Source: Desulfobulbaceae bacterium (GTDB taxonomy: Bacteria; Desulfobacterota; Desulfobulbia; Desulfobulbales; Desulfocapsaceae). From it: 64,000 bases of DNA. Below the pieces are notes generated by a model that made no database searches, was not told the DNA's origin, and worked only from the letters and a program-made list of their open reading frames with translations. The translations under genes were made by a program, and so were the position numbers. Below are positions 22,421 to 41,233 of the stretch, in pieces (position 1 is the first letter of the stretch; every line of letters begins with the position of its first letter). The stretch covers positions 1-64,000 of the forward strand of contig QZLB01000097.1 in the NCBI GenBank assembly GCA_004796425.1. Reading direction: 5' to 3'.

Positions 22421-23703
22421 AGCAGCCGAACCATCCCACGCTTGCGTATATCCTGAAAGGGTATCCGCGCATCTCAGAAACCTTTATCTCCAATGAAATT
22501 TTACTGCTTGAACAGCGTGGGTTTAAAATGCATCTCTTCCCTATGCGCAAACCGCGAGAAAATTTCACCCATGATTCGGTAAAAAAAATCCAGGCCGCCG
22601 TTGATTACCTGCCGACTGAGCTTTCCCTGGACTTTGTAAAATTAATTATCCCAAATCTACTCCTGGTTGCAGCGCAACCGAAGCGATACTTCTCTGCTTT
22701 GAAACTTGCACTTGATCGGTACCGCCAGAATCGCAAGATCGCCACCATCAAGCACCTCTTCCAAGCCGGCTACATGGTGTGGTATCACCTGCGCAAGGAT
22801 CCGTCAATAGTGCATCTCCACGGACACTTTGCACACTCACCCACCTCCGTTACCATGTTTGCGTCACAGCTGTCCGGTCTGCCTTTCAGCTTTACCGCTC
22901 ATGCCAAGGACATCTATACGTCAGACCCTGAGAAACTCAGGGAGAAAATAGGTCGTGCCGATTTTGTAATCACCTGCACTCTTCATAACAAAGCGTACCT
23001 GGAGTCTTTGATAAAAACGGAATTCACCGCGGTTCATTGTGTGTATCACGGTATTGACCTGTCTCTTTTTCACAATCAACAGCAACAGATCACCGCCCGA
23101 CCACCCTACCAGATTTTCACCATTGCCAGACTCACTCCCAAAAAAGGGTTACCAACAATCTACCGGGCATTGAGAATACTCAAGGATAAGGGAATCGACT
23201 TCCACCACACCCTGATTGGTGATGGTGATGACCGGGAACAGATCTTGGCCTTGATCGACCAACTTGAACTCAGCGATTACTGCACCTGGCTGGGAACCCA
23301 AAACCACACCCAGGTGCTTGATCGATTTCGCCAGAGTCATCTCTTTGTATTGGGATGTGAAATCGCTAAAAACGGGGATCGAGACGGTATCCCCAACGTT
23401 CTGGTCGAAAGTTTGGCGATGGGTGTTCCCGCAGTTTCCACCAACGTGTCTGCAATACCTGAAATCCTTATCCACGAGGAAAGTGGACTTACAGTTCCCC
23501 CCCGCGACCCTGACGCGCTGGCTGCTGCCATGTCACGACTGCTCCAGGATGAGCAGTTGAGAAGAAAGGTAATTGAACAGGGCCGCGCGCTGGTGCATGA
23601 AAAGTTTGACAATACCATGCTCATCAAAGCGATGGTGGATATCTTTCGAACCGGCAATTCGAAACTCTCAGAACAACCTCTTGTCTCAGGAACAGATGGT
23701 TAG
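22417..23703 (+). CDS. GT4 family glycosyltransferase
   Basis: This 428-residue GT-B enzyme has the group 1 pattern: YILKGYPRISETFISNEI at the start (as in colanic-acid-type transferases), HLHGHFAHSPT, FSFTAHAKDIY, IARLTPKKG opening the donor domain, and the catalytic EX7E region GIPNVLVESLAMGVPAVST. It retains configuration when transferring from a nucleotide sugar. Translation is coupled to the upstream transferase by ATGA and overlaps the phosphatase gene by eight bases. The sugar and acceptor are unknown. Confidence 0.9.
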   Translation: MKQPNHPTLAYILKGYPRISETFISNEILLLEQRGFKMHLFPMRKPRENFTHDSVKKIQAAVDYLPTELSLDFVKLIIPNLLLVAAQPKRYFSALKLALDRYRQNRKIATIKHLFQAGYMVWYHLRKDPSIVHLHGHFAHSPTSVTMFASQLSGLPFSFTAHAKDIYTSDPEKLREKIGRADFVITCTLHNKAYLESLIKTEFTAVHCVYHGIDLSLFHNQQQQITARPPYQIFTIARLTPKKGLPTIYRALRILKDKGIDFHHTLIGDGDDREQILALIDQLELSDYCTWLGTQNHTQVLDRFRQSHLFVLGCEIAKNGDRDGIPNVLVESLAMGVPAVSTNVSAIPEILIHEESGLTVPPRDPDALAAAMSRLLQDEQLRRKVIEQGRALVHEKFDNTMLIKAMVDIFRTGNSKLSEQPLVSGTDG

Positions 23704-24340
23704 CACACGCACCCCGGACGCACTGTTGCGATACGGTCTGCTTCGCCACGGCAAAACAGTCTGGAACGAACAGAAAAGGATCCAGGGGAGGGGTGATTCA
23801 CCTTTGACCAGGGACGGTATTCATACTGTTGAGCGCTGGGGGCGGCAATTACAAACATCCCCGGATCTGGACTGGCGGGTCATTATCCACAGCCCCCAGA
23901 AACGAGCCAGAGATACTGCTGAAATCCTTGCCAACATATTGGAAGTAGGTACCAAACCGGTTGAAGGTTTGCGTGAGCAGAACTGGGGCAAGTGGGAAGG
24001 ACTCACTCTTGAGGAAATATCCCGTGATTTTGGCGAGGAATTGGACGAGCAAATCAAGCGCGGCTGGGAATTCAGACCGCCAGATGGAGAATCCCGGCGG
24101 GAGGTTCTGCATCGTACCCGCACATGTTTGGTCGATTTTGGTGAGACCGCTTCCCCAGGTAATGTGCTGGTCATTTCTCATCAGGGGGTAATCAAAGCAC
24201 TTTTGTATGATCTGTTGAACCATGACTATCTACCAGCAAAATCAGCAGCGATCCACAAAAATCGTCTTCACCACATCGAATACGCAGCGGGCAGGCTGTT
24301 CATTGAAAAACTTGATATCGCGCTGGATAGCTCTTTATGA
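23696..24340 (+). CDS. Histidine phosphatase (phosphoglycerate mutase-like) in glycan cassette
   Basis: This protein of about 214 residues belongs to the branch-1 histidine phosphatases: phospho-acceptor histidine in LLRHGKTVWN, HSPQKRARDTAE, acid LREQNWGKWEG, and the second histidine in VISHQGVIKAL. Relatives dephosphorylate sugar phosphates, phosphoserine or alpha-ribazole phosphate. Its position between two glycosyltransferase genes suggests a sugar-phosphate or heptose-like substrate. The start at 23696 overlaps the GT4 stop; an earlier in-frame start at 23573 would place unrelated residues before the domain. The next gene begins at its stop (ATGA). Confidence 0.88.
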   Translation: MVSTRTPDALLRYGLLRHGKTVWNEQKRIQGRGDSPLTRDGIHTVERWGRQLQTSPDLDWRVIIHSPQKRARDTAEILANILEVGTKPVEGLREQNWGKWEGLTLEEISRDFGEELDEQIKRGWEFRPPDGESRREVLHRTRTCLVDFGETASPGNVLVISHQGVIKALLYDLLNHDYLPAKSAAIHKNRLHHIEYAAGRLFIEKLDIALDSSL

Positions 24341-25485
24341 AAGTTTCCTACTATTGCCAGCATGTTCTGGGCGTTGGTCATCTGCACCGAAGTCTTGAAA
24401 TTTGTCGGGCGCTTGGCAAGAGATTCCAGGTCGAAATGATCCTTGGCGGGCCAGAGTCAAATCTGGACGCACCCGGGGTACAGTTCCACCAGTTGCCCGG
24501 GCTTAGAATGGACCGAACCTTTTCAGGCCTTGAAACATGTGACCCGGCTGCCAGTCTGGAAACGGTCAAAGCGCAACGGCAACAGCAACTCCTGGATCAT
24601 ATTACGCAGAACAGACCAGATATCGTTGTCCTGGAGCTTTATCCATTTGGGCGAAAGCAGTTTCGCTTTGAGCTCGACCCGCTCCTTGAGTGGCTCAGTA
24701 GCGATAGTCCTCATACTTTGATTTATTGCAGCCTCAGGGACATCCTGGTAGAGAAAAGTGAGGGGCAGGATAAATTCGAGACGCGCGCGGTGCATACCTT
24801 CAATCGCTTTTTTGACGGACTGCTCGTGCATGCCGACCCGCAGATTGTCACGATAGATGAAACATTCACCAAGAGTGATCAGCTCAAACCAGAGATTTTT
24901 TACACAGGCTTTGTCACCCCGCACCCCTCGCCCCAGAGAGCTAATGAAATTCGCAGAATCACCGGCACCAATCAACAGAAGAAACTCATCGTCGCCAGTA
25001 TTGGTAGTGGTAGTGTTGGAGAAGAACTTCTGTTCAGTGTTGCGCAGGTTCATGCCTTGCTCTCGGAGGAAGGTGTGGTTACCCAGATATTCACCGGCCC
25101 CTATCTGGACCAGGCAGATTTTAACCGACTCAAAACAATGACTTCAGACTCTTTAAGGATCGACCGGTTCACCCCCCATTTCATTGATTGGCTTCTTGCT
25201 GCAGATCTGTCAATTTCCATGGCTGGATATAATACGACAATGAATGTGCTCGCCGCCCGGACACCGGCGCTGATGCTCCCTTTTGCCCAGAACCGAGAGC
25301 AGCAGATGCGGCTCGAACGTCTCGTGCCGCTCAGTGGAATTTCACCGCTGACCAGGGAGCAACTGGAACCCACCCAGTTGCACGAAATTATTGAACAACG
25401 ACTCAACGATGAGCGCTACAAAAGTGAGGTGAACCTCGACGGTGCCGAAAACACCAGAGATTATCTGATAAAAAAGCTGCGATGA
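24337..25485 (+). CDS. GT-B glycosyltransferase, paralogue of the first cassette gene
   Basis: This 382-residue protein repeats the layout of the gene at 21176: N-terminal VSYYCQHVLGVGHLHRS, a DIVVLELYPFGRKQFRFEL segment that corresponds to the KEPLG region of its paralogue, LIVASIGSGSVGEE at the inter-domain hinge, and DLSISMAGYNTTMNVL with the GY-N-T donor loop. It is coupled by ATGA at both ends. The pairing of two such transferases with GT4, phosphatase and deacetylase suggests stepwise assembly of a lipid-linked or secreted glycan. The donor sugar cannot be read from the sequence. Confidence 0.85.
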   Translation: MKVSYYCQHVLGVGHLHRSLEICRALGKRFQVEMILGGPESNLDAPGVQFHQLPGLRMDRTFSGLETCDPAASLETVKAQRQQQLLDHITQNRPDIVVLELYPFGRKQFRFELDPLLEWLSSDSPHTLIYCSLRDILVEKSEGQDKFETRAVHTFNRFFDGLLVHADPQIVTIDETFTKSDQLKPEIFYTGFVTPHPSPQRANEIRRITGTNQQKKLIVASIGSGSVGEELLFSVAQVHALLSEEGVVTQIFTGPYLDQADFNRLKTMTSDSLRIDRFTPHFIDWLLAADLSISMAGYNTTMNVLAARTPALMLPFAQNREQQMRLERLVPLSGISPLTREQLEPTQLHEIIEQRLNDERYKSEVNLDGAENTRDYLIKKLR

Positions 25486-26279
25486 ACACAAAACCTTCAG
25501 AACTATATGGTGATTATTCACCCCATAAGTCAGAAAAGCTGATTGAACAATTCGCTACCTCATTGGAACAACGGTCAAAACCGGTACCGGTCTTTTTCAG
25601 GGCCGATGATATCGGGGTCTCCTCGCAGAACTTTTCCCGCCTGCTGAAACTCTTTGAGCATTACGAAGTACCGCTCTGCCTGGCGGTGGTACCAGGTTGG
25701 CTGACCGATACAAGAATGAAAACACTCCGGGCCATTTGTGACCCGGAATCAGAGCTTTGGTGCTTCCATCAACATGGTTGGCTTCACCGGAACCACGAGC
25801 AGCAGGGAAAGAAATGTGAATTTGGCAGCTCACGTCACACCGATGACATAACGCATGATTTGTTAAATGGTAAACGGCGGCTCGAATCGATTTTGGGAAA
25901 TACGGTATTCCAACCCTTTTTCACCCCTCCATGGAACCGTTGCAGCGATGAAACCATAGACCAACTAGCCGCTCTGGGGTTTAAAGGCATCTCCCGTGAT
26001 CAAGCAAAAAGAAAGAATCCGTCGCTGCTACCGGACTTCGCAATTAATATTGATCTGCACACCAGACGCGAGCAGAGCGCTGATTTGGGGTTTGCAGCAC
26101 TTGGTCAGGAACTAATGAGAGGACTTGAACAAAATATGCTGGGTTTCATGATTCACCACCAGCGAATGAATGATCACGCTTTTGACCTCCTGGCAAGAGT
26201 CCTTTACCAATGCCAGTGCAACAGACTGATCAACCCCGCACATTTTACTACCCTGTACAAACGCTCCAGCGCTCCATAA
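25482..26279 (+). CDS. Polysaccharide deacetylase-like protein
   Basis: This 265-residue protein has a compact NodB/CE4-like fold: FFRADDIG supplies the catalytic and metal-binding aspartates, LCLAVVPGW the second strand, WCFHQHGWLHRNH the metal histidines, and FTPPWNR the substrate loop. There is no signal peptide, so it should act in the cytoplasm on a glycosyltransferase product or sugar-lipid. It closes the coupled cassette (start overlaps the upstream stop by ATGA). The following permease gene starts about 160 bases downstream with no terminator in between. Confidence 0.85.
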   Translation: MNTKPSELYGDYSPHKSEKLIEQFATSLEQRSKPVPVFFRADDIGVSSQNFSRLLKLFEHYEVPLCLAVVPGWLTDTRMKTLRAICDPESELWCFHQHGWLHRNHEQQGKKCEFGSSRHTDDITHDLLNGKRRLESILGNTVFQPFFTPPWNRCSDETIDQLAALGFKGISRDQAKRKNPSLLPDFAINIDLHTRREQSADLGFAALGQELMRGLEQNMLGFMIHHQRMNDHAFDLLARVLYQCQCNRLINPAHFTTLYKRSSAP

Positions 26280-26437
26280 GGGGGATTGACACCTCCTCGT
26301 AATTCCACTGTTTGAAGTGAAGATCATTGACAAGACAAACAATATGCAGATAGTATGCAGAATGCGGATACCCCTCAAATGATCGGTATCTCGCACGATT
26401 TTTCTTTTTTTCAGCCCTTGTCATTTCGGTGAGTTTT

Positions 26438-27088
26438 ATGAAGCGACTGATCGCCCTGCCGTTTCGAAAATCTGTAGAAATTGCCTTTCTTTCAATTCGT
26501 GTCAGATTTTTTCGCTCACTGGTAACCACCATGAGCCTGGTATTGGCTGTTGCGTTTCTCTGCTTTATGCGCAGCTCCAATGATTTTGCCCAGGGTTTTC
26601 TTGCCACCGGCAGTGTCGAAGCATACCAGGCGATAGTCCAGGCTGGTTATGATGTTTCCCTTGAGACCATGACTATTGCAGCCAGCGCCAAACAACGCTG
26701 GATTGTCACCCTTTCTCTGCTGGTATGTATTGTGGGAATAATAAATGCACAACTGATGTCTGTAACAGAACGGTTTAGGGAAATCGGTACCATGAAATGT
26801 CTTGGTGCACTCGATCGTTTTATCGTTCGTTTATTTATTTTGGAGGCTTCCATGCAAGGACTTGCCGGTTCTCTCTGTGGAGCCATCATCGGCACAATGG
26901 CTGCTGCGGCCAGTGCCCTATTATCTTTTGGCACTGGAGCGCTTTCCACTGATGCGCTCCAGCCACTGGCAGTCTCCATCGCAATTTCCGTGGTCACGGG
27001 TACCTCCCTGAGCCTGCTTGGTGTTATCTATCCAGCGATTATCGCGGCCAGGATGCAACCTGTTGAGGCAATGAGAGTTGAGCAATAA
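26438..27088 (+). CDS. Mini FtsX-type ABC permease without periplasmic domain
   Basis: The protein of about 216 residues has four hydrophobic segments: one near residues 25-45, then three of the FtsX permease core (about 85-105, 130-160 and 180-205). VTERFREIGTMKCLGA is the coupling-helix region typical of MacB/LolC proteins, and YPAIIAARMQPVEAMRVEQ is the usual end. The large periplasmic MacB_PCD domain that normally separates helix 1 from helix 2 is reduced to about 40 residues. ATG 26438 is preferred over GTG 26429 because GGTGAG precedes it. It likely pairs with the ATPase at 27120 and the giant permease at 27857. Confidence 0.85.
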   Translation: MKRLIALPFRKSVEIAFLSIRVRFFRSLVTTMSLVLAVAFLCFMRSSNDFAQGFLATGSVEAYQAIVQAGYDVSLETMTIAASAKQRWIVTLSLLVCIVGIINAQLMSVTERFREIGTMKCLGALDRFIVRLFILEASMQGLAGSLCGAIIGTMAAAASALLSFGTGALSTDALQPLAVSIAISVVTGTSLSLLGVIYPAIIAARMQPVEAMRVEQ

Positions 27089-27119: not shown

Positions 27120-27854
27120 ATGAAGAAAAAACAGATCGTCAGGGTGAGTGGGGTAACAAAAAATTTCGATCTCGGAAAGATTGTCGTTGAGGTCCTCAAA
27201 GGCATTGATCTTGAGATTGAGACAGGAAAGTACCTTTCTATTATGGGTCCCTCCGGCTCAGGTAAGTCTACACTTTTTAATATGATCGGAGGACTCGACA
27301 AACCGACATCGGGCAAAGTTTTCATCGATGAAGTAGATATTGCCCAACTTGACGCCTATGAGCTCGCCTGGCTTCGCTGTAGAAAAATCGGCTATATCTT
27401 CCAGACCTTTAATTTGATACCGGTCATGACTGCGCTGGAAAACGTAACCCTGCCCATGACTTTTGCAGGCTTGAGTAATGACGACGCGGTTGAACGAGGC
27501 ATGGAGCTTCTTTTTCAAGTCGGTCTCGAAGGGCGACACTCACATAAGCCTTCGGAGCTCTCTGGTGGGCAACAGCAGCGTGTTGCGGTGGCCCGGGCTC
27601 TGGCCAATACTCCGGCGATTATCCTGGCGGATGAACCAACAGGAAACCTTGATCTGACCACCGGCGAAGATATTATCAACCTGCTCAAAGAACTGAGCAG
27701 AGAACGAGGGGTAACCGTTATATCAGCAACCCATGATTACAAAATGCTCAATGTATCTGATCAGGTGGTATGGATTAGAGACGGCCGGGTTGACAAAATA
27801 CAGGATCGTTCCGACCTGGATATCAAGACAGGCGGCCTTACCGAGGAACGCTAA
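27120..27854 (+). CDS. ABC transporter ATPase, LolD/MacB type
   Basis: This 244-residue ATPase has Walker A GPSGSGKST (43-51), Q-loop YIFQTFNLIPVMTALENV, signature LSGGQQQRVAVARA (147-160), Walker B IILADEPTGNLD (167-178) and the H-loop in SATHDYKM. The FNLIPVMTALENV segment is characteristic of ATPases working with FtsX-type permeases (LolD, MacB, FtsE). Such pumps do mechanical work across the periplasm rather than classic transmembrane transport. It is placed exactly between the two FtsX-type permeases, two bases before the larger one. A heterodimeric complex with both is inferred. Confidence 0.95.
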   Translation: MKKKQIVRVSGVTKNFDLGKIVVEVLKGIDLEIETGKYLSIMGPSGSGKSTLFNMIGGLDKPTSGKVFIDEVDIAQLDAYELAWLRCRKIGYIFQTFNLIPVMTALENVTLPMTFAGLSNDDAVERGMELLFQVGLEGRHSHKPSELSGGQQQRVAVARALANTPAIILADEPTGNLDLTTGEDIINLLKELSRERGVTVISATHDYKMLNVSDQVVWIRDGRVDKIQDRSDLDIKTGGLTEER

Positions 27855-27856
27855 TT

Positions 27857-30800
27857 GTGCAGCCCATGACCATGTGCAAGAGACCAGTCTTTCTAACACT
27901 GCTGTTTTTCTGCCTGAGCATTTACAACTCAGGCGGGCTGAGTAGTGCACATGCCGAGGATCAACTCCCTTTTGAAGTCATCGAACAACTGGCAGCATTG
28001 AAAGATCGTTCCATCGGGACGGAGGGTAACGCTCAGGCTGCAGATTATATCAGCTCATATTTCACATCGCTGGGGCTTGAGCCTCAAGATTACCTGTTTC
28101 AAGTACCTACCAGAAAAGTAATCAATGCCCATATTTCAATAGCAGAGAAAAAGGGTGCACTTAAGCCACTGTTTAATAACGCTGTAACACCTCAATCGAC
28201 CGGTCTCTCTGGGCTGACAGGCCCACTTTATTTTGTGGGTGACGGAAACCTTAGCGATCTGGATGGCAAACTCATCGAAGGTTCCATCTTGGTGATGAAT
28301 TTCAACTCCGGACGACAATGGCTCACCGCCGCCTCCCTCGGGGCACAAGCCGTCATTTTCGTAGACCATGGTCATACCAGATCAAATGCGTTTTTCATTG
28401 AGAAAGAAGAGCTCTCCCCACTTCAGTTTCCCTGTTTCTGGATGACATCAAAAGAGGCTGAGCTGCTGTTCGGCCCCCTGTCGAGCAAAAATGGATTGAT
28501 CAGCAACCAGGTTGAGATCCTTTCTTCCGTCGTCTGGGAAACGGTCACCAGCAAAAACATCTATTGTTTGATCAAGGGTAGCGATCCACAACTCAGCGAA
28601 AAGTTGCTGATTATTGAAGCGTTCTACGATTCAACCAGATATGTGGAAGGCTCAGCACCCGGTGCCGATGAAGCGGTCTCCATCAGCAATCTATTGGGGC
28701 TTGCCCACTACTTCTCAAACAATCCACCCAAACGGTCAGTACTGCTCATTGCCACCAATGGCCACGCCCAGGCGCTGCACGGTATGCGCGACGTGATCTG
28801 GAGCTTACAGGAGCGGAGCAAAGTTTTACGGGACTATCGAAAAGAGCTGAGAAACACGATAAAGGCAGCAAAAAAGCGCATTGCAACGCTTACCTCGCTC
28901 TCCTTCCCGCTGGTCCCTGATCCAGATCGAGATCTTATCATTTCCAGTGCCATCATGGACGATCTGAAGATGGAGGTAGATCGTATTTCCCGGGTACTGA
29001 TGAAACTCAGGCTTGAGAAAGATGCAAGCTCGGCAAACAAATCGCTCATCACGGAGCTTGCCGACCAACGATTCACTCTGCGTAAACTCAGTTGGAGAGA
29101 ACAATTCAACGAGATGCCCGATGATGAGCGTACCTATTTCAAAAAGATAATATCACAAGCACTGATCACCCTTGAAAACCGGATCATAGACAATACCAGG
29201 GAGTTGGAGTCGCTGGAATCAGCGATGGATTTCAGGCAATTGTGCAGGGATTTTACCATTGATGCAGTACTTTCACTTCACCTGTCAAGTCACGGCGAGG
29301 GGATTGGCGGATTTCATCGTGGTTGGCTCTATCGGCTCAGATCCCGAATCAATCGAACCGGTATATTCAGTACCATCGGCCAGGTTTTTAGCGATGCGGC
29401 AGCCCAACTACCCACAACCGAAATCGTCGAATATATTGACACCCTTCGCCCCTCCCGACTCAGAAGCTGGGATTCCTATTTTATTGACAAACCTTTTCTC
29501 GGTGGTGAAATCAGTTCCCTGGCGGGCTACATCGGCGTCAGCCTGGTAACCGTTGGAGATGGCCGTACTCGCTGGGGCACACCGTGGGATACCGTAGAAC
29601 ACCTTGATAAACCGTACCTGGAAGCACAATATCAATTACTTCGATCGATGGTCTCGGCCACCGCCGATGCACCTGCGCTGCATGCTGATCTCTTTCCCCG
29701 CAATGGGTTCTCAAGCGTACGCGGCACCAGCAACTTGCTACTCCAGGGTGAGTTATTCGCCGACTATCCTGCAGAGCAGACGATCCTGCTCTCCTACCAG
29801 GGAATAGCCAAGCTCTATTCTTCAGTCAACAGCAATGGTACCTTTTTGTATAAAGGGATCGCCGACTCTAAAAACGTTCTGGATAAATTGATTATCGAAG
29901 GCTATCGGTTTGACCCTGTAAGCGGTGAGATCATCTGGGCTATCGATAAAAAAGAGACGGGCAAAACCAGTTATCGTGTAAAAATGTTGCGCCGAGCTAT
30001 GAAAACCCGATTGATTATGTTTGCCTGTAATCAAACCACCGTCTTTGATCTACTTGAGCCGCGGAGCCTCGATTATATGACCAAACTCTACCTCTTTGAC
30101 GGTAGAAGAGATGCGCCACCACAACGTTACTGGTACAGCAGAATCGATACCCGCCAATCGAATATCTCCTCGATCTATCTGGAACCGGGTTCCTGGTTGA
30201 AACTCACCCTCTCAGATAACGTTATAACCAGAAAGTTGATCCTCTCAAACGGTAACAAAAAAGTACCACTGGGCTTTGGATATCCGGTTGAAGAGTATCC
30301 CGCAATCATCCATACCGCATACCGTTCTGCCATGGATGCTTGGACTCTGCTGCTGCCGCGCATTGAGAATCTGGAATCGCATGGTATTTTCGATGAACGA
30401 ATCAACAACTTGAAAAACAGAGGACTCTCAGCACTGAACACAAGTACACAGCAACTCAAGGAGCTTAACTACACCGCTTTCAGAGAGCAGGCATCAGCTT
30501 CCCTGGCCCTGGCTGCCCGGGTTTATACTCAGATTGAAAAAACCCAGAAAGATGTATTGTTCGGAGTGCTATTTTATATTGCGCTTTTTGTCCCTTTTGC
30601 CTTCTGTATGGAACGATTTCTTTTCAGCTATGCCAACATCTATAAAAGAATTGTCGCATTTTCACTGATACTGACCAGTCTGATTCTGGTGATATATAAC
30701 GTCCACCCTGCCTTTGATCTGGCCTATAGTCCCATGGTGGTGATTCTGGCCTTTTTCATCATTGGTTTATCCCTGCTGGTCACCCTGATCATTTTCTTTC

Positions 30801-32692
30801 GTTTTGAAGAGGAGATGATCCTGTTGCAACGACACGCCAGCCAGATGAGTGCCGCAGAAATAAGCCGTTGGAAAGCATTTGTTGCTGCATTTTTCCTCGG
30901 GGTATCAAATTTGAGACGCCGGAGGATGCGCACCATACTCACCTGCACCACCTTGATCATCCTGACTTTTACCATCATGAGTTTCACCACGGTGAAATCG
31001 AACCAGCAGGAAAACAGGATGTTCTTCAATGATGAGACACCCTACCAGGGACTGCTCCTAAAGAAACTGAGCTGGAAGTCGATGCCCCCCCAGGCCGCCG
31101 CTATCCTTGAAGGAAGTATGGAATCAATCAGTTCACCGGCACAACGAGTGTGGCTTGAGGCCTCTGATGTAACACGAAGTGTTCATGTCCCCCTTCGCTA
31201 TCAGGGCAACAATTTTGTGCTTAATGGCCTCATTGGCCTCGGCTATCAGGAAGCGGACGTCACCGGTCTCGACCAGATCTTGAGCCGTGGCAGATGGTTT
31301 AAACCAACTGATCACCAGGCGATCATTCTGTCTGATAGAGCCGCGACCACCTTACAACTGGATTTCTCTGAAACACCCGTCATCGACCTTTTTGGTACAC
31401 CGTTCACGGTGATTGGCACCTTTTCTGGAGAACTCCTTGATCGCACCTTTGATCTTGATGGCGAGCCTCTTACACCAGTAATTTTCCCCGATGAAATGCA
31501 GCAGAATATGAGTGATGCAGAATTTGAAGCACTTGAGTCGGGAGAGGATGTCAGAAATTTGCAGTCCAGGTATTCCCATATCCCGGGAGGCTCAACTGCC
31601 ATTATTCCTGCGCCCACCTTGCTGGCCATGGGGGGCGAGCTGAAAAATATCGCTCTGAGATCAAATGATGAACTGCCACCTGCCAAAATTGCCTCCACCC
31701 TTGTTGATCGATTCAGTTTAGCAATTTTTGCGGGTGACCAGGATGGTGTCTGGCTCTACAACCTCAGTGATACCATGGCATACTCCGGTGTACCCAACAT
31801 CATCATCCCCTTGCTTATCTCGATTCTGATTGTTTTGAATACCATGATCAGTTCCGTCTATGAGCGAAAGAACGAGATTGGTATCTATACCTCTGTTGGC
31901 CTGGCACCATCGCATGTGTCGTTTCTCTTCGTCGCCGAAGCAATGGCCCTGGCAGTTATTTCCGTGGTGCTCGGTTACCTGGTTGCCCAGGTTTCCGCAG
32001 CGCTGCTCTCTGACACTCGCTATTGGGAAGGAATTACCGTCAATTACTCTTCACTTGCCGGCGTTGCCGCAATGCTTCTGGTAATCGGAGTCGTCTTGAT
32101 TTCAGTAATTTACCCTTCGAGAGTTGCCGCTCGGATTGCCATCCCCGACGTCAAACGTTCCTTTAAGTTGCCGGAGCCGGTCAACGACCAGGTAACTGTT
32201 ATGTTGCCGTTTTTCATGAAATATGAAGAACACAGCTCCATCGGTGGGTACCTCCACACCTTCTTCAGTGGCCACCAAGACATTTCCCATGGCAGGTTTT
32301 CCACCGGATTTATCGACCTGCTTCACACCTGTGCCACTGTTGATGAAATTGGCCAGGCTATTAAGAGCTCTGCAGACCCGTGCGCCTACCACTGTGTTCA
32401 TCTAAGATCACGAGTCTGGCTCTCACCATTCGATTTTGGCATCATGCAGTTGATCGACATCCAATTCTGCCCTGCTCGAGATAATCTGGAGTTTCTGGAG
32501 ATCAAGATCTCAATTAAAAGAGAGTCGGGAGAAAAAAGCCAATGGCAACGAATTAACAAATTGTTTATTCACGAATTAAGAAAACAGCTGCTGATCTGGC
32601 GATCCCTCGATGCTGGCCAGCATGAAGCGTATGCTCAACATTTTCAATCTATTTCAGAAGCACCATTAACACCGCAAAGTACAAATGACTAA
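27857..32692 (+). CDS. Giant fusion: degenerate M28 peptidase domain plus FtsX-type ABC permease
   Basis: The 1611 residues run in this order: signal peptide (1-33), PA-like domain (115-205), M28 peptidase fold (240-310 and 460-600) interrupted by a helical insert (315-450), beta-rich domain (605-800), coiled coil (830-895), three membrane helices (900-985), an FtsX core with helix at 1023-1045, periplasmic MacB_PCD-like part (1050-1310) and three helices (1312-1425), and a cytoplasmic tail (1430-1611). The zinc ligands of M28 are lost: the first His is F256, the EE pair is H303-A304, and the last His is G574, so it should bind rather than cut peptides. VYERKNEIGIYTSVGLAPSHV is the coupling helix. 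GTG at 27857 follows GAGG at 10 bases; ATG 27866 is an alternative. Confidence 0.85.
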   Translation: MQPMTMCKRPVFLTLLFFCLSIYNSGGLSSAHAEDQLPFEVIEQLAALKDRSIGTEGNAQAADYISSYFTSLGLEPQDYLFQVPTRKVINAHISIAEKKGALKPLFNNAVTPQSTGLSGLTGPLYFVGDGNLSDLDGKLIEGSILVMNFNSGRQWLTAASLGAQAVIFVDHGHTRSNAFFIEKEELSPLQFPCFWMTSKEAELLFGPLSSKNGLISNQVEILSSVVWETVTSKNIYCLIKGSDPQLSEKLLIIEAFYDSTRYVEGSAPGADEAVSISNLLGLAHYFSNNPPKRSVLLIATNGHAQALHGMRDVIWSLQERSKVLRDYRKELRNTIKAAKKRIATLTSLSFPLVPDPDRDLIISSAIMDDLKMEVDRISRVLMKLRLEKDASSANKSLITELADQRFTLRKLSWREQFNEMPDDERTYFKKIISQALITLENRIIDNTRELESLESAMDFRQLCRDFTIDAVLSLHLSSHGEGIGGFHRGWLYRLRSRINRTGIFSTIGQVFSDAAAQLPTTEIVEYIDTLRPSRLRSWDSYFIDKPFLGGEISSLAGYIGVSLVTVGDGRTRWGTPWDTVEHLDKPYLEAQYQLLRSMVSATADAPALHADLFPRNGFSSVRGTSNLLLQGELFADYPAEQTILLSYQGIAKLYSSVNSNGTFLYKGIADSKNVLDKLIIEGYRFDPVSGEIIWAIDKKETGKTSYRVKMLRRAMKTRLIMFACNQTTVFDLLEPRSLDYMTKLYLFDGRRDAPPQRYWYSRIDTRQSNISSIYLEPGSWLKLTLSDNVITRKLILSNGNKKVPLGFGYPVEEYPAIIHTAYRSAMDAWTLLLPRIENLESHGIFDERINNLKNRGLSALNTSTQQLKELNYTAFREQASASLALAARVYTQIEKTQKDVLFGVLFYIALFVPFAFCMERFLFSYANIYKRIVAFSLILTSLILVIYNVHPAFDLAYSPMVVILAFFIIGLSLLVTLIIFFRFEEEMILLQRHASQMSAAEISRWKAFVAAFFLGVSNLRRRRMRTILTCTTLIILTFTIMSFTTVKSNQQENRMFFNDETPYQGLLLKKLSWKSMPPQAAAILEGSMESISSPAQRVWLEASDVTRSVHVPLRYQGNNFVLNGLIGLGYQEADVTGLDQILSRGRWFKPTDHQAIILSDRAATTLQLDFSETPVIDLFGTPFTVIGTFSGELLDRTFDLDGEPLTPVIFPDEMQQNMSDAEFEALESGEDVRNLQSRYSHIPGGSTAIIPAPTLLAMGGELKNIALRSNDELPPAKIASTLVDRFSLAIFAGDQDGVWLYNLSDTMAYSGVPNIIIPLLISILIVLNTMISSVYERKNEIGIYTSVGLAPSHVSFLFVAEAMALAVISVVLGYLVAQVSAALLSDTRYWEGITVNYSSLAGVAAMLLVIGVVLISVIYPSRVAARIAIPDVKRSFKLPEPVNDQVTVMLPFFMKYEEHSSIGGYLHTFFSGHQDISHGRFSTGFIDLLHTCATVDEIGQAIKSSADPCAYHCVHLRSRVWLSPFDFGIMQLIDIQFCPARDNLEFLEIKISIKRESGEKSQWQRINKLFIHELRKQLLIWRSLDAGQHEAYAQHFQSISEAPLTPQSTND

Positions 32693-34685
32693 GACAGCAC
32701 ATCAGGTCAATCGCTCAATTCGTTTACGAGCCCCCATACTGGGGTTGCTTCTGTCCTGCTGGATTTGCCTGGTTACACCGCTGAACAATATCTACCATAA
32801 GTCAACCCCGCTGGGTGGCGGGCACTTTCCCCTGGCACCTTTTTTCATTTTTTTCATTCTGGCAATTCTCATTTCGCTGCTCGCCTGGCTGTTCAGAAGA
32901 AGAGTTCTGCTCTCCGGCTCTGAACTATTGCTGATCTGGATACAGATGGTGATCGGCTCGGGGATCGCCTATACCGGCTTTGCCCGCACCTTTCTGATCA
33001 ACTTGACCGCTCCGATCCATTTTGCCACCGTATCAAACCAGTGGGAAGGCCAATTTCTCCCTTTGCTTCCCGCCCGGTTAATGCCCGATTCAAATGAGGC
33101 AATCACCCTGCTTTACAACGGAATACCTGGCGGCAGATCCATGGGCTGGCTTGAAACCCTGCAAGCCATCCCCTGGTCACCCTGGGTTACCCCACTTCTA
33201 CAGTGGGCACTCTTCCTTGGCGTCTCATACTTTTTGATGATCTGCATTATTAATCTGCTCTCACGTCAGTGGATACTCAACGAGCGGCTCAATTTTCCGT
33301 TATTAAAAGTCCCGCAGCTCATTGGCGAAGCGATTGATACCGGAGGAATCCGCGGATTTCTGGGCAACCGTTTCCTGCTGGTCGGGTTGGCGATACCGCT
33401 CTGTCTTCACCTGATGAATGGATTGAATCTTTACTATCCTTCCATTCCCCATCTCCCAACCGTAATTCTTGCCGGATCATATTTCCCCAAAGAGGGGTTC
33501 CTCTCCGGTTTTTACAAGTTGAAGATCTACCTCTACCCCGCGTTCATCGGTTTTGCCTTTCTAGCCTCCCGACAGATCTCATTTTCGTTCTGGTTCTTTT
33601 TTCTATTGGGGGGACTGGTTTATGGCACTATGAACATGCTGGGGTACACAATACCGGCTTCTGAACTGGGTATTACCTTTGGTCCAACACTTACCAAGCC
33701 AGAAGAAATGCAGATGATCGGCGCCTATGGTGTATTTTTCTTTTTTCTCATCTGGCTGGCCCGACATCATCTCACTGATGTTACCAAACAATCGTTTCTG
33801 ATGGCGCCGCCGGGTGACAAAAATCCCGTCGAATGGTTCGATGTGCGCATTTCATTCTGGGGCACCGTCGCCGGAGCCCTGCTACTTGCAGGCTGGTTCA
33901 ATTACCAGGGGGTGAGCTGGACCACGGCCCTGCTATTGGTCGCTTCATTTTTTATGATATCGGTGGTCGTAACCAGAATTATCTGTCAGGGAGGACTTGC
34001 CTATTTCACCCTGACCGCCGCACCCATGGATGGTATTTCAAGTTTGTTCGGCACCAAATTCCTTGGCGGCACCAACGGTTTACTCGGTGCCATGAGCCAA
34101 AAAGTACTGTTCGTCGATTTCCGGGAATCTCTGATGCCGTCCCTGCTCCATAGCAAAAGTGTCACCGCGAAAAACCATAATGTTCTCCTGGTGGTATCAG
34201 CCTTGGCTCTAACCATTGGCTTTGCGGTGATCAGCTCTCTGGTCGCAATGATGGCCCTCTGTTATCGGTTCGGCATTAGAGAGCTTGACCTGGAATGGGC
34301 TTCACGCACCACGCTGAACGTCTATGAGAACGCCTACCGGCTGGTCACCAACCCGGTACCGTCAGGTGACTGGGTACACACCTTTATTATTGTCGGTGTG
34401 GTGGTGATGATTGTCCTTGTGCTCTGTTATCAGCGACTGTACTGGTGGCCTCTCCATCCAATTGGTTACCTGACGGCTTACAGTTCAGCAATGCGGATTC
34501 TCTGGGTGAGCTTCTTTTTCGGTTGGTTATTCAATACGCTCTGTATGAAGTACGGAGGGGTACAGTTATTTAGAAAGATGCAATTGTTTTTTATCGGCAT
34601 GATCATCGGGGATTTCCTGATGGGAGGAATATGGGCAATTATCGGCCAGTATACTTACACCAGTTATATGGTATTGCCAGACTGA
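32685..34685 (+). CDS. Large polytopic membrane protein, DUF6785-like
   Basis: This 666-residue protein is extremely hydrophobic, with more than a dozen predicted helices. RQWILNERLNFPLLKVPQLI at about residue 190 resembles the W...ER(L)xFPL motif of DUF6785/DUF6784 membrane proteins, mostly known from planctomycetes and not characterised. These are distantly similar to oligopeptide (OPT) transporters. The start overlaps the giant permease gene by eight bases, indicating translational coupling. The next gene, another polytopic protein of equal size, starts seven bases after its stop. Transport of a peptide- or lipid-like substrate is possible but not shown. Confidence 0.75.
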   Translation: MTKTAHQVNRSIRLRAPILGLLLSCWICLVTPLNNIYHKSTPLGGGHFPLAPFFIFFILAILISLLAWLFRRRVLLSGSELLLIWIQMVIGSGIAYTGFARTFLINLTAPIHFATVSNQWEGQFLPLLPARLMPDSNEAITLLYNGIPGGRSMGWLETLQAIPWSPWVTPLLQWALFLGVSYFLMICIINLLSRQWILNERLNFPLLKVPQLIGEAIDTGGIRGFLGNRFLLVGLAIPLCLHLMNGLNLYYPSIPHLPTVILAGSYFPKEGFLSGFYKLKIYLYPAFIGFAFLASRQISFSFWFFFLLGGLVYGTMNMLGYTIPASELGITFGPTLTKPEEMQMIGAYGVFFFFLIWLARHHLTDVTKQSFLMAPPGDKNPVEWFDVRISFWGTVAGALLLAGWFNYQGVSWTTALLLVASFFMISVVVTRIICQGGLAYFTLTAAPMDGISSLFGTKFLGGTNGLLGAMSQKVLFVDFRESLMPSLLHSKSVTAKNHNVLLVVSALALTIGFAVISSLVAMMALCYRFGIRELDLEWASRTTLNVYENAYRLVTNPVPSGDWVHTFIIVGVVVMIVLVLCYQRLYWWPLHPIGYLTAYSSAMRILWVSFFFGWLFNTLCMKYGGVQLFRKMQLFFIGMIIGDFLMGGIWAIIGQYTYTSYMVLPD

Positions 34686-34692: not shown

Positions 34693-36651
34693 ATGTACGA
34701 CGACAAGGAACTAAAAGAATATCGGGATCTGCTCCCGACTCCTGACCATTTCGAAGAAGGGTTCGACTGGAAAACCATTGTCGGCGCCATTTTTATCGGC
34801 TTCCTGATGATGCCCGGTTCCATGTACCTGCAGTTGGTCATTGGTCAGGGAATCGGACCGGCTGCTCGCTGGGTAACCATTATCCTGTTTGCGGAAATTG
34901 CCAAAAGAGCCCACTCCGATCTAAAGCAGCAGGAAATTTTTCTCCTCTATTACATGGCTGGTGCGGCCCTTGCCTCTCCTTTCTCGGGACTGCTCTGGAA
35001 CCAGTACCTGGTCCAGTCAGACGCCGCTAAAATGTTGGGATTGACCGAATATATTCCAACCTGGGTTGCACCAGGACCTGAATCGATGTCCATGATAGAG
35101 CGGACCTTTTTCCATCGTGACTGGATGATTCCCATCCTGCTCCTGGTGGGTTCACAGATTATTCAACGGATCGATCATTTCGGGTTGGGATATGCGTTGT
35201 ATCGTATTACTTCCGATGTTGAAAAACTGCCCTTCCCCATGGCTCCGGTTGGTGCCCTGGGAACCATGGCGCTGGCTGAATCGGCAGAAGAAAAACAATC
35301 GAGCTGGAAATGGCGGGTCTTTTCAATCGGCGGGGTAGTCGGTCTGGCGTTCGGGGCAATATATGTATTGCTGCCCATTGTGTCGGGGCTGATCTTTACC
35401 GAGCAGATCCGCTTAATTCCGATACCCTGGATTGAATTGACTTCACATACCGAAGATGTCCTCCCGGCGGTAGCCACCGGACTGCAACTCGACCTCGGCC
35501 TGGTCTTTGTCGGTATGGTTCTACCGTTCTGGGCAGTAATCGGCGGTCTGATCGGTTTGATCATCACCATAATCCTGAATCCAATCCTCTACGCCCAGGG
35601 AATTCTCCATCGCTGGCACCCGGGAATGGCCACTGTGGATACGGTCTTTGCCAACAATTTTGACTTTTATATGAGCTTTGGTATCGGGCTGGGTCTGGCC
35701 ATCGGTGTCATCGGCATCTATTCCGTTGTCAAATCTATCAGGCAGTCAACCGCCAATCGAGGAGACTGGAAAGCGTTGTTCAATCCCCCGCCGGGAAGGG
35801 GCGACTTCAATTTTTGGATATCAATTGGCATCTATGTTTTTTCAACGCTTGCCTATGTCGGGCTGTGTGTCTGGCTGGTACCGACATTCCCCTGGATTTT
35901 CTTCCTGGCCTACGGCTTTATTTACACGCCGGTTATCTCTTATATTACCGCCCGGATGGAAGGTATCGCCGGCCAGTTTGTCAGCCTGCCGCTGGTCAGG
36001 GAAGCAAGTTTTATTGCCGGTGCGCGCTTTTTTGGCTACCAGGGTATCGAGATCTGGTATGCACCAATTCCGATCCATAATTATGGAGAGGCAACCGTCC
36101 AGTTCAGACAGATCGAACTTACCGGTACTTCCATCAGGGGGATCATTAAGGCTGAAATTATCGTCTTCCCAATTGTCATGGTGGCCAGTCTGCTGTTTTC
36201 ACAATTTATCTGGCGACTTGCTCCCATTCCCTCTTCGAGCTATCCCTATGCCCAGGAGCTTTGGCATCTCCAGGCCCTCAATACCCTGCTGATGCAGACC
36301 TCGACGCTGGAAGGCAACTCGCTCTTTTATCAGGCACTAAATGGTACCACCGTAATTTCCGGGGTGGGATTTGGTTTGCTGGCCTATGTTGTTTTGAGTT
36401 TTTTCGGCCTCCCGGTGCTGCTCATATACGGGGTGGTTAGAGGGTTGGGCCAATCGACCCCCCATGGTCTCATTCTCGAAGTGTTCGGCGCCCTGCTCGG
36501 GCGGTATTATTTTATTAAAAAATACGGCCCCATGTGGCGCCAGTACGCGCCGGTGCTGCTGGCTGGGTTTTCCTGCGGTATGGGCTTAACCGGTATGTTT
36601 GCCATGGGCTTTGCTCTGATCATGAAATCGTTGAACCATATGGCTTACTGA
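34693..36651 (+). CDS. Large polytopic membrane protein, OPT/DUF6784-like
   Basis: The 652-residue product has about 14-16 hydrophobic segments. DHFGLGYALYRITSDVEKLPFPMAPVGA at about residues 160-185 resembles a region of OPT-family oligopeptide and siderophore transporters and of uncharacterised peptide-transporter-like proteins in planctomycetes. It shares with its upstream neighbour the size, hydrophobicity and an (E)xLxFP motif, so the two may form a heterodimer that arose by duplication. It is packed between that gene and the exporter gene. The substrate is unknown; peptide import or export is an inference from family resemblance. Confidence 0.75.
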   Translation: MYDDKELKEYRDLLPTPDHFEEGFDWKTIVGAIFIGFLMMPGSMYLQLVIGQGIGPAARWVTIILFAEIAKRAHSDLKQQEIFLLYYMAGAALASPFSGLLWNQYLVQSDAAKMLGLTEYIPTWVAPGPESMSMIERTFFHRDWMIPILLLVGSQIIQRIDHFGLGYALYRITSDVEKLPFPMAPVGALGTMALAESAEEKQSSWKWRVFSIGGVVGLAFGAIYVLLPIVSGLIFTEQIRLIPIPWIELTSHTEDVLPAVATGLQLDLGLVFVGMVLPFWAVIGGLIGLIITIILNPILYAQGILHRWHPGMATVDTVFANNFDFYMSFGIGLGLAIGVIGIYSVVKSIRQSTANRGDWKALFNPPPGRGDFNFWISIGIYVFSTLAYVGLCVWLVPTFPWIFFLAYGFIYTPVISYITARMEGIAGQFVSLPLVREASFIAGARFFGYQGIEIWYAPIPIHNYGEATVQFRQIELTGTSIRGIIKAEIIVFPIVMVASLLFSQFIWRLAPIPSSSYPYAQELWHLQALNTLLMQTSTLEGNSLFYQALNGTTVISGVGFGLLAYVVLSFFGLPVLLIYGVVRGLGQSTPHGLILEVFGALLGRYYFIKKYGPMWRQYAPVLLAGFSCGMGLTGMFAMGFALIMKSLNHMAY

Positions 36652-36679: not shown

Positions 36680-39250
36680 ATGGCTGACACCGACATCACA
36701 AAACGCTCTTTATTTTACTGGGTTTATAACCGGTATCGAGGACTCCAGGTCCTGCTTCTGGTGATTATTGTGGTGAGCCTGTTTTTCAGGGTATTTCCGC
36801 TGGAGATGCAGCGACGAATCATCAATGTCGCTATCAACCTGAAAATGATCGACAAGCTCTATCTCTATTGTGTGCTCTATATGGGTGCAGTGCTGATCGC
36901 CGGTCTGCTGAAATATCTAACAAATACCATGCAGATGATGATCGGGCAGAAAATTCTGATCGGTATGAGAAAAGAGCTTTATCAGCATATCCTCCAGCTA
37001 CCGCTACCCTTTTTTCACCGGACACAAACCGGTACGATTATTTCCGCGCTCACCGCCGAACTCACGGCCATCGCAACCTTTCTGGGAGGCGCACTGGCAG
37101 TGCCGATCACCTCTATCCTGACCTTTTTCACTTTCCTGGGGTTCATGATCTACCTAAACCCATTGCTGGGTCTCTTGACCATGTTGATCTACCCCTTCGA
37201 AATGGCTGTTATCCCGCTCCTTCAACGCTGGTATAACAAATATAATCGCAAGCGTGTTGCCACCACTCGGACCCTGGCCTCAGTTGTGAATGAGTCGGTC
37301 ACCGGTATCCATGAGGTGCAGGGAAATGCCAGCTATATCCTTGAGCAGGGAAAACTTGATCGCTTGGTTAAAAAAATCTACTCGCTCATGACCAAGCTTT
37401 TCATTTTCAAGTATGGCATCAAGTTCAGCAACAACCTGTTCCAATCCATTGGTCCCTTCCTGCTGTTTCTCATTGGTGGGTACATGGCAATCCATGGAGA
37501 ATTTACCATTGGGGCACTGGTGGCCTTTCTCTCTGCGTATGAGAAAGTCTATGACCCGTGGAAGGAGGTGATTGAGTATTACCAATCGTACCAGGATGCC
37601 CGGGTACGCTATAAACAGATCATGACTCTCTTTGCGTACCAGCCGGAATTCCTGCTTGAGCCTCTTGAGAAGCGAGAAGTATTCAATCTCAAAGGTGAAA
37701 TTTCAGCAACCAACCTGAACTATTGGGTCAACGATAGTGTCCAGCTGCTGCAGGATATCTCGTTTCAGATCAAGCCGGGCAATCATGTTGCGCTTGTGGG
37801 CTTCTCCGGATCCGGTAAAAGTACCCTGAGCCTGCTGTTGAGTCAGCTGTACCGTATTTCTTCGGGTTCACTGAAGATTGATAATCACGAGATATCCGAT
37901 TTAACGAAACGTGACCTGGCTCGAAATGTCGCCAACGTTGCACAGCACCCGTTTATCTTTACCGGCACCGTTCGCGACAACCTCCTCTATGCGAGCAACA
38001 CACTCCAAAAAGATGGCTTGATTGAAGCCATTCCTTCACCGCAGGAACAGATGGAGATGATCAGGGAAGTGGGACTCGAAGAGGATACGCTGCGTTGGGG
38101 GTTACGCTCAGTAATTCCACTGGAAAAAGCTGCTCAGATGCGTGAGTCCTTTCTGAAAATGCGAGAAGTAATCCACCATGAGCTGCGTAATGAATTCACC
38201 CAGGCCATTGAATTCTATGATGCCCATACATTTCTTCACCATCAGCCCATCGCCACTAACCTGATTTTTGGAACTTATGGTGGTGCGTATCATGTGGATA
38301 AATTCATCACGAACCAGCAATTCAGAAGTTTTCTCTCGACCACAGGGTTGGAGAAAAAACTGCTCGACCTCGGCTTGATAATCGCCCGTTCGACCATCGA
38401 GTTTTTGGGTGATTTTCGTGCTGACGAATATTTCTTTCAAGGATCACCAATGAGTCAGGCTCGCTTTGATCACTATGAAGCGCTGGTAAAGCGAGCTGCA
38501 AAAATTGAATTTGATCAATTAAAAAGCAAAGAGTTAGAATCATTCCTGCAGCTTGCCCTAGATTTCACGCCGGGGATTCATAAAATCCACACCCTGAACA
38601 AACAATTTGAAGATGATATTCTCCGTGGTCGAAGCCAATTCCTGAAACAGGTGGCAGACATCGACCTGGATGAATGTCGTGATGGTGCGATCCAAACAGC
38701 CATTCTGCCCATCAGCGACATTGAAAAACAGGCCCGGACAACCACCAGCTACACCCCGTTCTGCTTTAACCAGTATCTCTTTAACCGAACCCTTCGGGAT
38801 AACATTTTGTTTGGCACCGTGATCAACCAGGAACTTATCAGAGAAAAGCTTGGCACACTGGCTCTTGAGGTATTCAAAAAACACGGCCTGCTGGACGACA
38901 TCATGGAAATCGGTCTGGATTTTCATGTCGGAAGTAAAGGGGATAATCTCAGTGGCGGCCAGAAACAAAAACTGGCTCTGGCTCGCGCCTTTCTGAAACA
39001 TGCCCCCATTCTTATTATGGATGAGGCAACCGCCAGTCTTGATAATCGATCTCAGGCGCGAATACAGAACTATATTGAGACAAGATTACGCGGTAATACC
39101 ACAGTAATTGCAGTGGTGCACCGGCTTGACATGATTTCTGGATATGACCATATTATAGTCATGAAAGATGGTAAAATTGTCGAAGCCGGAAACTATCAAA
39201 ATTTGATAGAACAACAGGGGGTTCTTTATGGACTCGTCAATGACAGCTGA
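36680..39250 (+). CDS. ABC exporter with split nucleotide-binding domain
   Basis: The 856-residue protein has a six-helix exporter domain (about 20-300) and an ABC domain with Walker A GFSGSGKST (374-382), Q-loop Q422, then GTVRDNLLYA (429-438). The signature LSGGQKQKL comes only at 757, with Walker B ILIMDEATA (777-785) and H-loop H814. Normal exporters need about 80 residues between Q-loop and signature; here it is about 330. Within the insert the pattern N-hydrophobic3, then GL, then GL nine residues later occurs three times (N434/G465/G474, N527/G556/G565, N708/G736/G745), suggesting triplication of the helical subdomain. All core ATPase residues are intact. It follows the OPT-like gene by 28 bases. 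Confidence 0.88.
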   Translation: MADTDITKRSLFYWVYNRYRGLQVLLLVIIVVSLFFRVFPLEMQRRIINVAINLKMIDKLYLYCVLYMGAVLIAGLLKYLTNTMQMMIGQKILIGMRKELYQHILQLPLPFFHRTQTGTIISALTAELTAIATFLGGALAVPITSILTFFTFLGFMIYLNPLLGLLTMLIYPFEMAVIPLLQRWYNKYNRKRVATTRTLASVVNESVTGIHEVQGNASYILEQGKLDRLVKKIYSLMTKLFIFKYGIKFSNNLFQSIGPFLLFLIGGYMAIHGEFTIGALVAFLSAYEKVYDPWKEVIEYYQSYQDARVRYKQIMTLFAYQPEFLLEPLEKREVFNLKGEISATNLNYWVNDSVQLLQDISFQIKPGNHVALVGFSGSGKSTLSLLLSQLYRISSGSLKIDNHEISDLTKRDLARNVANVAQHPFIFTGTVRDNLLYASNTLQKDGLIEAIPSPQEQMEMIREVGLEEDTLRWGLRSVIPLEKAAQMRESFLKMREVIHHELRNEFTQAIEFYDAHTFLHHQPIATNLIFGTYGGAYHVDKFITNQQFRSFLSTTGLEKKLLDLGLIIARSTIEFLGDFRADEYFFQGSPMSQARFDHYEALVKRAAKIEFDQLKSKELESFLQLALDFTPGIHKIHTLNKQFEDDILRGRSQFLKQVADIDLDECRDGAIQTAILPISDIEKQARTTTSYTPFCFNQYLFNRTLRDNILFGTVINQELIREKLGTLALEVFKKHGLLDDIMEIGLDFHVGSKGDNLSGGQKQKLALARAFLKHAPILIMDEATASLDNRSQARIQNYIETRLRGNTTVIAVVHRLDMISGYDHIIVMKDGKIVEAGNYQNLIEQQGVLYGLVNDS

Positions 39251-40366: not shown

Positions 40367-41233
40367 ATGCTCGAACCTGCGGTTACACCATCCCGTGTCT
40401 GCTGGAACGGCCTCTCTTTTCATCTCGATCCGGGATGCGAAGTCACCATCAAGAACGACAGTCACCTGATCATCGAACACCAGCTCTCTCCACTGGCAGA
40501 AATCAGATGGTCAATCACCGGTAAGAAGAAACGAAATAAGAATTTTCAAAGCCTGGACCGCGATCTCAGTGCCAAATATGAGCGGTTGAAAATTTCTGAT
40601 ATATCGCGATTTCAAACGATTAGCAGTAATTTCGAACTGGCCTCTTATCGAACCAATCATGGTGAGCATCGGGAACTGGTGCTGGCTCTTCAATGTAAAA
40701 GCTGTGGCACCAATTATCTGCTCCATTGTGCAGATTCCCAAGAACAATCCAAACCGATCGTAACCCTTTATGAGCAGTTGAGTTGTACCCATCCAGGGAC
40801 AGTCCGAAATCAGGTTTGGCAGATCCAGGATTTCTATTTTCTTGTTCCACAAACCTTCTCCCTGAGCTCACAACGGTTTTCTCCAGGAAATTCTATCCTC
40901 ACTTTTACAAATGGCCCCACCATCCTTTACTATGGTCGGATTGTTCCGACCCTGGCCGGTTCGCACCAGGAAGATTACGCAACCCTCTTCTGCTCGCTTA
41001 CCGGGCTTCGACAGGACCAGCTTGTCGAAGAAAAATCGACTTTCTCCGGGCTCAACACCCCTTCCCTGACAAGTCGAATAGCGACCCTTTTACATCGTCG
41101 AAAGATTTTCCAGTGGGGACACGCTCAGATTTTTGAAGATCATGATCGATTCCTGGTCGTTTCTCTCCAGAGCAGGAAGCGTATCGATACGGATTTACAA
41201 AATAGATTATCAAATGGTTATGGGCTTATTTAG
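40367..41233 (+). CDS. Unrecognised protein in the transporter locus
   Basis: The 288-residue product has no signal peptide or membrane helix and no family I can name. It shows alternating short beta strands, a CKSCG motif (C110, C113) with C121 nearby that could bind metal, and a repeated overall pattern in two halves: LSFHLDPGCEVTI near residue 16 and FYFLVPQTFSLSSQRF near residue 155, each followed by a short strand and a polar loop. It starts one base after the preceding stop and overlaps the next gene by 14 bases, so it is coupled on both sides. Two tandem similar domains are possible. Confidence 0.7.
   Translation: MLEPAVTPSRVCWNGLSFHLDPGCEVTIKNDSHLIIEHQLSPLAEIRWSITGKKKRNKNFQSLDRDLSAKYERLKISDISRFQTISSNFELASYRTNHGEHRELVLALQCKSCGTNYLLHCADSQEQSKPIVTLYEQLSCTHPGTVRNQVWQIQDFYFLVPQTFSLSSQRFSPGNSILTFTNGPTILYYGRIVPTLAGSHQEDYATLFCSLTGLRQDQLVEEKSTFSGLNTPSLTSRIATLLHRRKIFQWGHAQIFEDHDRFLVVSLQSRKRIDTDLQNRLSNGYGLI

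Follow-up and report, generated by a model that had tools for sequence, protein, structure and literature searches.

A conserved zinc-less M28 domain fused to an FtsX-type ABC permease and encoded beside a predicted OPT-fold membrane protein in Desulfobacterota

Background

What does a peptidase fold do on an ABC permease once its zinc site has been lost? The question is raised by a gene within a 64,000-nucleotide stretch of Desulfobulbaceae DNA (the window; contig QZLB01000097.1, from a genome of 4.4 Mb), whose product joins a PA plus M28 fold to an FtsX core. An initial annotation, made from the letters and their translations, proposed that the M28 domain is dead and could be a substrate-binding module that feeds the pump, so that ATP-driven movement acts on a bound peptide or protein.

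Permeases with an FtsX core belong to the Type VII ABC systems, among them MacB, LolCDE, FtsEX and YbbAP-TesA (PMC5985334, PMC12646458). These systems shift periplasmic parts and do not pass substrates through themselves (PMC5985334); a periplasmic partner is typical of them (PMC5985334, PMC12646458), and in YbbAP-TesA the transporter presents substrates to a periplasmic hydrolase (PMC12646458). No fusion of an M28 domain or other peptidase to FtsX was found in the literature searched, and searches of plasmids returned one plain M28 peptidase or nothing.

The fusion gene and its product

The reading frame opens with GTG at 27857, its stop ends at 32692, and it is intact throughout, exactly as the 1611-residue chain had been placed. 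The gene and the parts of its product are as follows.

27857..32692, + strand: M28-FtsX fusion gene, 1611 residues, frame intact; about 80 full-length homologues
27857..27955, + strand: signal peptide, residues 1-33, end approximate (hydropathy over residues 4-29; AHA-E cleavage-like motif by eye)
27968..28552, + strand: N-terminal lobe with PA-like domain, residues 38-232 (alignment to 2ek8 and 6hc6; predicted fold)
28553..28810, + strand: first half of the M28 core, residues 233-318 (PF04389, profile alignments, Foldseek)
28811..29230, + strand: helical insert within the M28 fold, residues 319-458, about 140 residues (AlphaFold model)
29231..29656, + strand: second half of the M28 core, residues 459-600 (AlphaFold, Foldseek, hhalign)
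29690..30256, + strand: beta-rich domain, family unknown, residues 612-800 (AlphaFold model; mean identity 62%)
30257..30544, + strand: helical stalk into the membrane, residues 801-896 (AlphaFold model)
30545..30826, + strand: three extra TM helices, residues 897-990 (hydropathy; mean identity 83%)
30926..30994, + strand: TM1 of the FtsX core, residues 1024-1046 (hydropathy)
31007..31786, + strand: MacB-like periplasmic domain, residues 1051-1310 (MacB_PCD, sub-threshold)
31772..32146, + strand: FtsX TM2-4, residues 1306-1430 (PF02687, 1.2e-12; hydropathy)
32147..32689, + strand: C-terminal domain, fold unknown, residues 1431-1611 (conserved blocks)

By Pfam, the FtsX domain (PF02687) is matched at residues 1317-1427 (48.4 bits against a cut-off of 25.5, 1.2e-12), and M28 (PF04389) is matched at residues 234-313 with 22.7 bits against a cut-off of 21.3, over profile positions 1-76 of 193 only. 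The PA match (14.1 bits, cut-off 23.9) and the MacB_PCD match (18.9 bits, cut-off 27) are sub-threshold, and residues 1431-1611 have no Pfam match.

An AlphaFold model of the periplasmic part (residues 30-905, from a 53-sequence alignment) has a mean pLDDT of 89.4 and a pTM of 0.88. Its top Foldseek match is the AM-1 aminopeptidase (2ek8, E 3e-18), with further matches to BSAP (6hc6) and Pseudomonas PaAP and then to the transferrin receptor and GCPII; the closest solved structures are thus zinc aminopeptidases, with the transferrin receptor lower in the list. The insert and domain shifts plausibly explain why Foldseek gives large global RMSD values, which are no measure of the pocket. On this model the periplasmic part is a PA plus M28 fold, and the first description, of such a fold joined to an FtsX core, is supported by the model and structure matches for the fold and by PF02687 for the core. 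The same fused order in about 80 homologues rules out a mis-assembly artefact. Named relatives of the protein come from Desulfofustis, Desulfocapsa, Desulfopila and other Desulfobacterota.

Loss of the zinc site

Alignment of the fusion family, with the helical insert removed, to active M28 peptidases of the same phylum by hhalign (probability 98.7, E 4e-16) places the former ligands. Many M28-profile matches in neighbouring genomes that by motif resemble M20 peptidases or unrelated proteins, on our reading, were excluded from the active references. Five sites are of interest.

28622..28624, + strand: F256, replacing the first His zinc ligand (hhalign; homologue residue counts)
28667..28669, + strand: D271, the bridging Asp and the sole ligand retained (hhalign; homologue residue counts)
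28763..28768, + strand: H303-A304, replacing the catalytic Glu and the Glu ligand (hhalign; homologue residue counts)
29279..29281, + strand: H475, replacing the Asp zinc ligand, within a conserved SLHLSSHG (hhalign; homologue residue counts)
29576..29578, + strand: G574, replacing the last His ligand, within a conserved WGTPxD (profile alignments; homologue residue counts)

Of the five zinc ligands four are replaced, as is the catalytic Glu, and the canonical site of an active M28 enzyme is thus lost. Alignment of the family profile to 2ek8 and 6hc6 agrees with hhalign over the first half of the domain and the WGTPxD/YHTPxD motif. The substitutions initially read at F256, H303-A304 and G574 all recur in these alignments, and the change of Asp to H475 adds a fourth lost ligand that the initial annotation did not contain. 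Zinc ligands elsewhere in the domain, a complete set of which would have overturned that reading, were sought in the profile alignment with active M28s, which shows none.

The losses extend across the family as sampled, in depth, in Desulfobacterota. In 81 homologues, the most distant of them about 30% identical, positions 256 and 574 are never His and positions 303 and 304 never Glu, and Asp at 475 occurs in a single distant sequence out of the 81. The ligand loss in the M28-FtsX family is old and shared. In the main clade of 67 members the replacement residues are themselves kept (F256 in 63 of 66, H475 in 65 of 67, G574 in all 67), as are E551, D568, R570, W573, T575, P576 and D578, each found in 67 of 67; A304 varies, and so, to a lesser degree, does H303. 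The M28 core of this clade is 51-56% identical to that of the protein described here and has many invariant residues; conservation within the protein is lowest in the helical insert (mean identity 33%). Because the main clade conserves most of the replacement residues, the pattern is that of a repurposed pseudo-peptidase rather than a decaying gene; judged by these residue counts, the clade looks re-specialised. The M28 domain is very probably a conserved pseudo-peptidase. Most of the replaced positions vary among the 14 distant members, which makes it doubtful that all members of the family share one conserved ligand.

Three other Desulfobacterota proteins of more than 1000 residues (L109:1-2493, L110:1-2310 and L112:1-2448) have, on our reading, an apparently intact M28 site. 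Each also carries an HEILHNWWG motif before the M28 domain that resembles an M1-type zinc site, and in L109 and L112 the C-terminal tail looks PDZ-like.

The ABC complex

Two genes directly upstream of the fusion gene encode a small permease and an ATPase.

26429..27088, + strand: minimal FtsX permease, 219 residues, probable partner (PF02687, 4.1e-18; adjoins the fusion, conserved)
27120..27854, + strand: LolD/MacB-type ATPase (Pfam and NCBIfam; motifs intact)

In the small permease, on our reading, some 45 residues of loop separate TM1 from TM2-4. Walker A, signature and Walker B motifs are all present in the ATPase, whose best NCBIfam match is LolD (4.7e-68). Every NCBIfam equivalog cut-off is nevertheless missed, by the ATPase for LolD (229 against 307.75) and by the fusion protein for MacB (22.7 against 966) and FtsX_Gneg (16.8 against 255), and the system is accordingly not filed as LolCDE, MacB or FtsEX.

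Several features of a Type VII system are present: an FtsX C-terminal TM domain in the fusion protein, a cognate ATPase encoded by the adjacent gene, and, again in the fusion protein, a topology of TM1 (1024-1046), a periplasmic domain of about 260 residues and TM2-4 (three TMs in 1306-1430, by hydropathy). In the best explanation, the fusion would be the larger permease of a Type VII ABC complex that also contains the 219-residue FtsX and the ATPase; the two permeases would then form an unequal pair.

A predicted OPT-fold protein and a probable OPT relative

The two genes that follow the fusion encode membrane proteins.

32685..34685, + strand: DUF6785+DUF6784 membrane protein, predicted OPT fold (overlaps the end of the fusion gene by 8 bases)
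34693..36651, + strand: P2, membrane protein of 652 residues, probably OPT-related (profile comparisons)

The model of the DUF6785/84 protein (pLDDT 86.9, pTM 0.89) matches barley Yellow stripe 1 (YS1, 7wst) at E 2.4e-7 and probability 1.00 in a structure search; the match spans almost all of the chain (TM-score 0.60/0.66, about 12% identity). Two YS1 entries are the only matches under E 0.001, the third match being at E 0.17. Although the OPT Pfam model (PF03169) does not match DUF6785 at E <= 10, profile-profile comparison by hhalign to OPT proteins, taken from a draw of 297 genomes, gave E 6e-5 and probability 65. An OPT fold for DUF6785 is, as a prediction from the model, well supported.

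For P2 the indications are weaker. No Pfam family, OPT included, matches the P2 members at E <= 10; the hhalign comparison to OPT profiles is weak (E 1.6e-4, probability 50); and a whole-genome search with the OPT model found one P2 orthologue at 7.9e-4. Reversed-sequence controls against the OPT profiles (E about 0.4) were worse than both DUF6785 and P2. When the DUF6785 and P2 profiles were compared directly with each other, no significant similarity emerged, and sequence searches of the PDB with both profiles returned nothing meaningful. Profile similarity is therefore suggestive of an OPT-related P2. The protein is 70-92% identical in 28 Desulfobacterota genomes, a conservation far above that of the fusion and the operon partners. 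Families of the OPT type were absent by Pfam from all 58 genomes of close relatives, and no mention of DUF6785 or DUF6784 was found in the literature searched.

Gene set and surroundings

The small FtsX, the ATPase, the M28-FtsX fusion, DUF6785/84 and P2 form a tight string, and this order is kept across loci. Three separate searches of one draw found full-length M28-FtsX, DUF6785 and P2 in the identical 28 of 395 Desulfobacterota genomes, a count that sets aside partial M28/PA matches and one sub-threshold DUF6785 fragment. These 28 genomes carry 12 family labels, including two (f1 and f12) whose other sampled members lack all three proteins; they are related, and their agreement does not amount to 28 independent events. 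The fusion is truly separate from DUF6785 in four genomes (G347, G306, G161 and G215), and elsewhere a contig break may explain the separation.

Upstream, positions 21176-26279 form a conserved block that codes for three glycosyltransferases together with a histidine phosphatase and a polysaccharide deacetylase. Many related genomes have this block immediately 5' of their ABC genes, and one of the glycosyltransferases stands out.

24337..25485, + strand: glycosyltransferase, still linked to the module in several distant clades (association only)

Such glycosyltransferase, polysaccharide deacetylase and histidine phosphatase genes are upstream in most main-clade loci that have enough flank, and several loci have the five-gene module without genes of this block within the stretch examined. 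The surroundings leave a glycan-related role open.

Downstream, the source genome encodes an MsbA-like exporter, a cNMP-binding protein and a PqqD-domain protein, which are also near the module in many other genomes. In the exporter (36680-39250) some 250-270 residues split the nucleotide-binding domain, and motifs that resemble each other (TVRDNLLYA and TLRDNILFG) stand at the two borders of the split. The PqqD-domain protein (41133-41606) is near the module in other genomes as well; the PqqD-domain fold serves peptide recognition in RiPP pathways.

A model for the module

The reading that we prefer, at about even confidence, is that the M28 domain is a zinc-less receptor or gate built into a Type VII ABC complex, which would act together with the OPT-fold partners on a periplasmic ligand. 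The PA plus M28 pseudo-aminopeptidase, kept by selection, would act as receptor or gate, and its conserved pocket would hold a small periplasmic ligand. ATP-driven motion of the TM and stalk helices would alter the conformation or position of the M28 domain, and the ligand would be handed to, or released from, DUF6785/84 and P2. Where the substrates of OPT-family proteins are known, they are peptides or metal chelates, and a ligand that is peptide-like or a metal chelate would suit an OPT fold; that the ligand is one of these is possible, if doubtful. The linked glycosyltransferases suggest that it may be glycosylated.

From Type VII behaviour and the YbbAP-TesA precedent we infer that the M28 domain, or the ligand it holds, would be what ATP-driven movement acts on, and this part of the original proposal fits, by analogy, the known systems (PMC5985334, PMC12646458); the proposal as a whole is partly supported. 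The notion of a module that feeds the pump is imprecise, because solved Type VII systems show no trans-membrane substrate path. If anything is carried across the inner membrane, DUF6785/84, with its predicted OPT fold, and the probably OPT-related P2 would do the carrying; these partners, which the original proposal did not include, are better candidates than the ABC pump. A stronger version pictures a hybrid machine, in which a Type VII mechanotransmission ABC uses a pseudo-aminopeptidase receptor to gate or load two OPT-fold permeases. We regard this version as tentative and rather less than probable; it would be a kind of machine not described before, in which work powered by ATP in the periplasm is coupled to the fold of a secondary transporter.

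Alternative explanations

The dead M28 domain might instead be a docking scaffold for a separate periplasmic or membrane partner and bind no small ligand, with ATP-driven motion switching the OPT-fold proteins or an envelope enzyme on and off, as FtsEX does via EnvC. The transferrin receptor, an inactive M28 homologue and a match in the Foldseek search, is a receptor for a protein; the modelled helical insert and beta-rich domain would provide binding surfaces, the fusion co-occurs perfectly with the two membrane proteins, and Type VII systems typically act through a periplasmic partner (PMC5985334, PMC12646458). However, conservation is concentrated at the former active-site motifs and not in the insert, and a pure surface scaffold is disfavoured for that reason, leaving this reading unlikely, though a serious competitor. 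Conservation at those motifs could also mean that the pocket has become a new catalytic or metal site for other chemistry, built from D271, H303, H475, H479, E551 and D568, which are 86-100% conserved in the main clade despite the lost canonical ligands. Since H303, H475, H479 and D568 vary in the 14 distant members, we consider this improbable.

The upstream genes raise another prospect, that the machine moves an envelope glycoconjugate (an exopolysaccharide or a glycolipid intermediate) and that the pocket binds a sugar or lipid-linked sugar instead of a peptide. The frequent presence of the sugar-related block in the main clade and the persistent linkage of one glycosyltransferase in distant clades speak for it, but the several loci that have the module without the block and the peptides and metal chelates carried by those OPT-family proteins whose substrates are known speak against it. 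Lipid-like substrates are often extracted by Type VII systems (PMC12646458). Overall, a glycoconjugate is somewhat less likely than a docking scaffold. Lastly, the lost zinc site could mark a non-functional relic that accompanies the FtsX core, yet the domain is full-length in about 80 homologues and highly conserved in the main clade; decay is ruled out by conservation across homologues, and an idle domain is very improbable.

Comparison with known systems

YbbAP-TesA of E. coli resembles the zinc-less receptor system proposed here in pairing a Type VII permease with a periplasmic protein of hydrolase fold and in its ATP-driven periplasmic movement (PMC12646458). TesA, however, is a separate and active GDSL esterase, whereas the M28 fold is covalently fused and without a zinc site, and YbbP is a single 10-TM permease where the present system has two FtsX proteins, a long one and a minimal one. 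LolCDE and MacB share the LolD/MacB-type ATPase, the FtsX domain and the MacB-like periplasmic domain, and LolCDE likewise has one ATPase gene with two unlike permeases. Relative to these systems the fusion adds a periplasmic part of 900 residues and three TMs and falls under all equivalog cut-offs; no MacA/TolC or LolA gene was recognised among the neighbours examined.

The aminopeptidases BSAP/YwaD (6hc6) and AM-1 (2ek8), the best structural matches, have the PA and M28 folds in the same order as the fusion, which differs by its 140-residue helical insert, its membrane permease and its replaced zinc ligands and catalytic Glu. Transferrin receptor 1 is a membrane-anchored M28 fold without peptidase activity; it is an animal single-pass receptor without an ABC transporter. 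The OPT-family protein YS1 (7wst) shares its predicted fold with DUF6785/84, the sequence of which is unrecognised by the OPT Pfam model.

Implications

Typical Type VII systems pair with a separate periplasmic protein, whereas here the partner fold is a built-in, family-wide dead peptidase, and the genomes that have the fusion inherit it as a set with two membrane proteins. If the proposed reading is right, DUF6785 and DUF6784 would gain a fold and a context, and these Desulfobacterota would provide a bacterial counterpart to receptors made from inactive M28 peptidases. The module would also be a concrete system in which to examine mechanotransmission as a means of driving or gating a separate permease.
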